Shown: in pieces, positions 23,500-40,712 of the stretch
Layout of the letters: every line of letters starts with the position of its first letter
Numbering within the stretch: position 1 is the first letter of the stretch
NCBI RefSeq assembly: GCF_020740795.1
Contig: NC_067305.1
Coordinates: forward strand, 1,860,001 to 1,924,000
DNA: 64,000 nt
Origin: Apus apus
Lineage: Eukaryota > Chordata > Aves > Apodiformes > Apodidae
Direction of reading: 5' to 3'
Notes under the pieces: model-generated
What the model was told of the DNA's origin: nothing
Databases searched by the model: none
Seen by the model: only the letters and a program-made list of their open reading frames with translations
Program-made: the position numbers and the translations under genes

Positions 23500-23740
23500 G
23501 AAGTGAAACCGATTTGGGGGGGCGGGGCGGGGCGGGCCCGTCATGTGAACGGCCGCATGCTCGGGCAGAAGTGGGTCAGCGGCGCGGCGGAGGGGCAGGT
23601 GCCAGAGCAGCCGGAGCCCCCCGGAGCCCCCCGGACCTGCCGCCGGAGCAGGGATCCCCGCAGGGACCGGAGCCCCGCGTCCCCGTCCCCCCCCCATGCG
23701 CCCCCCGGCGCGCTCCTGACCGCCCGTCACCATGCGAGGT
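23500..23740 (+). promoter_or_regulatory. RORB-like: CpG-island promoter of the RORB-like gene
   Basis: Tandem GC boxes (GGGGCGGGGCGGGGCGGG, 23518-23536), a TCATGTGA palindromic E-box variant at 23541-23548 and a RORE-like GAAGTGGGTCA at 23568-23578 (10 of 11 against WAWNTRGGTCA) lie 150-215 bp upstream of the ATG. There is no TATA box. The RORE-like site would allow feedback by ROR or REV-ERB proteins; this is inferred from the motif only. Confidence 0.55.
23732..23738 (+). CDS. RORB-like: RORB-like exon 1 (ATG CGA G)
   Basis: Only seven coding bases, ATGCGAG, before donor GTGAGTCC. With exon 2 they give [11 protein letters not shown], exactly the start of the short RORB isoform and close to ROR-gamma-t (MRTQIEV). 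The context gtcaccATG is a good Kozak site and the codon lies in a CpG island. A longer N-terminal isoform from another promoter was not found. Confidence 0.85.

Positions 23741-40712: not shown

Follow-up and report, generated by a model that had tools for sequence, protein, structure and literature searches.

A complete ROR-type nuclear receptor gene, very probably an orthologue of RORD (NR1F4), beside ZFAND5/6-type and SCAMP genes in Apus apus

The window, a stretch of 64,000 nucleotides of Apus apus DNA, carries on its + strand a complete ten-exon gene of the ROR family at 23732..40712, whose joined exons encode a product of 465 residues (Table 1; positions are those of the window unless a contig label precedes them). 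We located the gene with human RORB and RORC probes and placed its exon borders by homology and the AG/GT rule. All exons are open, and each of the nine introns has an AG acceptor and a GT donor; the coding sequence starts with ATGCGAG at 23732, directly followed by the donor GTGAGT, and stops with TAA at 40710-40712. The ten joined exons thus bear out the complete 465-residue gene, with the same start and end, that had been proposed in a preliminary description of this DNA. The very short first coding exon is specified by start and donor together: the pattern ATGCGAGGT[AG]AG has a single match on the + strand of the window, which is the predicted exon. Its MR start is presumably the same as that of the RORB1 form, RORB itself starting, as we take it, with MR-AQIEV. 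The CpG island over this exon has a GC content of 0.71-0.79 and an observed/expected CpG ratio of 0.71-0.85 across three 400-base intervals starting at 23401, 23601 and 23801.

Table 1. Positions of the ROR gene, its neighbours and assembly features in the window.
Feature	Position	Strand	Basis or remark
A20-type finger exon, ZFAND5/6-type gene, ends approximate	5040..5213	-	ORF 5040-5417, translation
CpG island over first coding exon, likely promoter	23401..24200	.	base composition
ROR gene, coding exon 1	23732..23738	+	ATGCGAG = residues MR plus one base; within CpG island
ROR gene, exon 2, first zinc finger	32273..32358	+	29/29 residues identical to human RORB (hand-entered sequence)
ROR gene, exon 3, second zinc finger	32453..32594	+	homology, AG/GT
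ROR gene, exon 4, C-terminal extension of DNA-binding domain and hinge	33328..33741	+	homology, AG/GT
ROR gene, exon 5, ligand-binding domain	34475..34596	+	homology, AG/GT
ROR gene, exon 6, ligand-binding domain	34861..34993	+	homology, AG/GT
ROR gene, exon 7, ligand-binding domain	36278..36385	+	homology, AG/GT
ROR gene, exon 8, ligand-binding domain	37254..37364	+	homology, AG/GT
ROR gene, exon 9, ligand-binding domain	38669..38781	+	homology, AG/GT
Direct duplication of ~1 kb, both sides of gap	39349..41433	.	likely assembly artefact
First last-exon copy, end approximate	39461..39623	+	one-base indel alters C-terminus
Assembly gap, 99 N	40340..40438	.	
ROR gene, exon 10 (second last-exon copy), AF-2 helix PPLYKEVF, TAA 40710-40712	40551..40712	+	
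SCAMP-domain exon, gene extends beyond window	60766..60888	+	Pfam SCAMP

The last exon is present in two copies, at 39461 and 40551, flanking the 99-N gap, a feature absent from the preliminary description. Aligned over 1000 columns, the ~1 kb duplicates that contain them show a single mismatch and 14 gap columns, many of these in single-base runs. The duplication at 39349-41433 is probably false, two contig ends left unmerged that double the last exon. Upstream of the gene, long repetitive Pro/Cys/Met-rich open frames at 17447-18585 look like a simple tandem repeat.

We then compared the predicted protein with human RORA, RORB and RORC, whose sequences were entered by hand (the RORC ligand domain was identical to a PDB chain at 254/254 residues, and RORA and RORB were checked against PDB chains by eye), and with the RORA and RORB of the same genome. 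The protein has the two C4 zinc fingers and ROR-type C-terminal extension of the NR1F group (residues 3-100, with identities from 90.7% to RORC up to 99.0% to RORB): 97 of 98 residues are identical to both human and own-genome RORB, 91 of 98 to RORA from either source, and 88 of 97 to human RORC. It also has a ROR ligand-binding domain with an AF-2 helix (PPLYKEVF); among the best 60 of 247 PDB matches, the leading chains, with E-values that lie far beyond chance, were RORbeta (4.9e-113), RORalpha (2.3e-90) and RORgamma (1.3e-73). Identity in this domain amounts to 161/252 with human RORB and 159/252 with own RORB, 133/255 and 132/255 with human and own RORA, and 115/253 with human RORC, which upholds the earlier reading of the protein as RORB-like rather than RORC-like. 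By comparison, 244 of 253 residues in this domain are common to human and own RORB. The hinge is identical to that of human RORB at 48 of 103 positions. Alignment showed that the His, Tyr and Phe of helix 11/12 are retained; we take these residues to form the ROR agonist lock, as in RORgamma. MCRAF is replaced by MIRAF and one residue fewer lies ahead of helix 12, changes that could alter the response to ligand. Across 97 codons of the DNA-binding domain, plain counts against own RORB gave 50 identical codons, 46 silent differences and 1 amino-acid difference, a ratio that points to purifying selection on a working gene.

The placement of the protein was assessed in an unrooted maximum-likelihood tree of six sequences (human RORA, RORB and RORC, own RORA and RORB, and the window protein; no published RORD was included), in which the own RORA and RORB rows were hand-trimmed exon translations with borders not checked for splicing. 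The tree was run on the full alignment and on one without the hinge, with support given as SH-aLRT/UFBoot. Human and own RORB formed a pair that excludes the window protein (98.9/99 full, 98.2/99 hinge-free), and the window protein adjoined this pair (99.5/100 and 99.4/100). The AU test rejected, on both alignments, grouping of the window protein with RORC (p = 0.003 and 0.006) and with RORA (p = 0.001 and 0.007), as well as its nesting within RORB, beside either the own or the human sequence (four tests, p = 0.0006 to 0.018). The SH test agreed in part: on the full alignment it rejected the groupings with RORC (0.043) and RORA (0.041) but not the RORB nestings (0.095 and 0.114), and on the hinge-free alignment it rejected none of the four alternatives (0.055-0.091). 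In this six-sequence tree the protein thus forms a lineage of its own, adjacent to RORB and distinct from A, B and C; its membership in the RORB clade is rejected by AU and not by SH, and its grouping with RORC by AU on both alignments and by SH on one.

Searches of the organism's own genome covered 1.1 Gb in 110 contigs, the window being C25:1860001-1924000. With the window protein as query we obtained 87 matches (91 of 112 candidates scored), and those that run through the DNA-binding and the ligand domain alike, with ROR-like identity, lay on C25 (the window gene), C36 (RORB) and C11 (RORA); the remaining matches we read as other nuclear receptors. Exon matches of own RORB break where those of the window gene do. 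The full-length human RORC probe gave 81 matches, with 83 of 106 candidates scored, and no RORC locus was found among them. Separate loci for both RORB and RORC had been proposed as a check on the gene's identity; the first was found, on C36, and the second was not found with this one human probe. Human 1q21-22 carries SCAMP and S100 genes. In the own genome, 7 of 11 S100 matches fell on contig C28 (near 0.71-0.73 and 1.15-1.16 Mb), which also has a SCAMP match at 1.87 Mb, and neither the human RORC probe, nor the window protein (87 matches), nor Pfam Hormone_recep (47 matches) detected a ROR on that contig. The S100 matches indicate that the assembly includes the 1q21-type contig, where RORC would be expected; for RORC this leaves either a gap in the assembly or a true absence. 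We give a slim chance to the more far-reaching possibility that RORC was truly lost in this lineage and RORD does some RORC-type work, with the ZFAND5/6-type neighbour likewise retained here and lost in placental mammals.

The same failure to find RORC with the human probe (83 of 106 candidates scored) would be expected if the window gene were itself this genome's RORC orthologue, diverged and relocated, with no second RORC. We consider this very improbable. The two share membership of the ROR family and a DNA-binding part identical at 88 of 97 residues, but the ligand domain is far closer to human RORB than to human RORC (161/252 against 115/253), the grouping fails the AU test on both alignments (SH 0.043 and 0.074), and the contig with SCAMP and most of the S100 matches is a different place from C25; moreover, chicken has RORg in addition to RORblike in the list of Sakai et al. 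(PMC5553892), as given in the main text. A lineage-specific duplicate of RORB can draw on the near-identical DNA-binding part (97/98) and on the SH test, which does not reject nesting within RORB (0.055-0.114), and yet we find it hardly credible: the human and own RORB pair excludes the window protein with high support, AU rejects the nesting, silent changes separate the gene from own RORB at 46 of 97 codons, and the window gene's neighbours are part of a repeated block. A pseudogene or decaying copy, suggested by the one-base indel and changed C-terminus of one last-exon copy, is extremely improbable, as that indel is confined to the duplicate adjoining the assembly gap, whereas the exons are all open, 9/9 introns keep AG and GT, and silent differences outnumber amino-acid differences by 46 to 1 in 97 codons. 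We therefore rejected the RORC identity on the AU tests and identities, the RORB duplicate on the RORB pair and silent codons, and the pseudogene on the open exons and AG/GT borders. The earlier claim that the gene is neither RORB nor RORC is supported by the AU rejection of both placements, the separate RORB locus and neighbours that differ from those on C28.

In line with the first description, a ZFAND5/6-type gene flanks the gene on one side and a SCAMP gene on the other. The A20-type finger motif on the left was identified by eye, and a zf-AN1 exon follows at C25:1859215-1859313 (-), ~0.7 kb left of the window. On the right, Pfam SCAMP matches on C25 lie at 1920766, 1926679 and 1930394, the later ones past the right edge of the window. 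We take the SCAMP gene to be of SCAMP4 type on human synteny, and the names of the SCAMP, ZFAND and CK1-gamma paralogues are likewise our assignments from human positions. Genome-wide, we counted 15 SCAMP matches (C25, C36, C11 with two genes, and C28), 9 zf-AN1 matches (of ZFAND5/6 type by eye on C25, C36, C11 and C33, of another type on C5 and C7, with further matches on C15) and 6 CK1-gamma matches (C11, C36 and, 57 kb beyond the right-hand end of the window, C25). Three contigs, C25, C11 and C36, thus each hold a ROR, a SCAMP, a ZFAND5/6-type and a CK1-gamma gene, as counted from one search per family in the own genome without a chance control. The set is tight on C25 and loose on the others: on C11 it occupies ~12 Mb (0.8 to 13.1 Mb), and on C36 it extends over ~38 Mb (SCAMP at 25.0, ROR at 37.6, ZFAND at 38.5 and CK1-gamma at 62.7 Mb). 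Such repetition on three contigs is the pattern expected of a 2R paralogon with a fourth ROR.

Several further observations concern these contigs. COUP-TF-type ligand domains lie at C25:5282643-5282993 and C11:16706864-16707241; by eye they look like NR2F6 and NR2F2, respectively, which we assume would fit 19p13-like and 15q-like contigs. The AN1 exon of the ZFAND5/6-type gene beside the window gene differs from the copies on C36 and C11, and this gene may be a third ohnologue that has likewise disappeared from human 19p13, where we know of no ZFAND5/6-type gene. We infer that C36 (77.8 Mb, with RORB, a ZFAND5-type gene and SCAMP) is the Z chromosome. A ZFAND5-type AN1 exon at C33:1019686-1019772 matches the C36 copy residue for residue; C33 is possibly a W contig that carries a gametologue.

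Taken together, we are highly confident that the window gene is an orthologue of RORD (NR1F4). This receptor and its occurrence in birds are already known from publications of 2014 and 2017, and its recognition in the preliminary description is correct. Finn et al. 2014 (PMC4245216) recorded RORD in Table 2 as present in Aves and Metatheria and absent in Eutheria, with Prototheria left blank. Sakai et al. 2017 (PMC5553892), in the main text, named the clade NR1F4/rord, included chicken RORblike XP_003642912.2, proposed (A,C) and (B,D) as the ROR pairs and stated that no mammalian NR1F4 was present in any database. On non-placental mammals the two papers conflict, marsupials being positive in one (PMC4245216) while the other has none (PMC5553892). 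A fourth ROR from the 2R duplications, kept in birds and lost in mammals, had been put forward for this gene; the fourth-ROR part stands on the AU tests and neighbourhoods, though already published, and the mammalian loss matches what Sakai et al. found but, for Metatheria, not Table 2 of Finn et al. Contrary to a four-ROR picture, PMC6723592 counts as many ror genes in spotted gar as in human, with rora, rorb and rorc in its table; gar RORblike is, however, listed by Sakai et al. (PMC5553892), and Holostei are RORD-positive in Finn et al. (PMC4245216). As described in these two main texts, published RORD is, like the window gene, an additional ROR that adjoins RORB and is separate from A, B and C, and it is reported as present in birds and absent from placental mammals; compared by description, no difference between them was established, and the functional data published there are those of medaka RORd1 alone. 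The word SCAMP is absent from both main texts (PMC5553892, PMC4245216), a scope on which we do not claim the placement beside SCAMP4 as unprinted.

We take RORD to be the fourth ROR that arose when the genome of early vertebrates was twice duplicated, and here it is still flanked by ZFAND5/6-type and SCAMP genes. As in other RORs, it probably binds the RORE as a monomer with a DNA specificity near that of RORB, recruits coactivators through helix 12 and, as an activator with a diverged ligand domain, has a default activity that a lipid ligand tunes. Monomeric RORE binding of RORB type is predicted from the near-identical DNA-binding part, and ligand-tuned default activity from the retained His, Tyr and Phe of the agonist lock. 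In medaka, the strongest responses of RORd1 were to 4-hydroxy- and 4-keto-retinoic acid, and its targets included the bmal1a and cyp26a1 promoters, as reported in the main text of PMC5553892, and by analogy retinoid and eye or clock roles are the leading guess; any ligand named for the present gene would likewise be a guess drawn from medaka.

The neighbourhoods within one genome support the assignment of RORD to the SCAMP4/CSNK1G2 block as its 2R copy. Records labelled 'RORB-like' outside placental mammals denote a fourth receptor, for which roles in retinoid response and the clock are possible.
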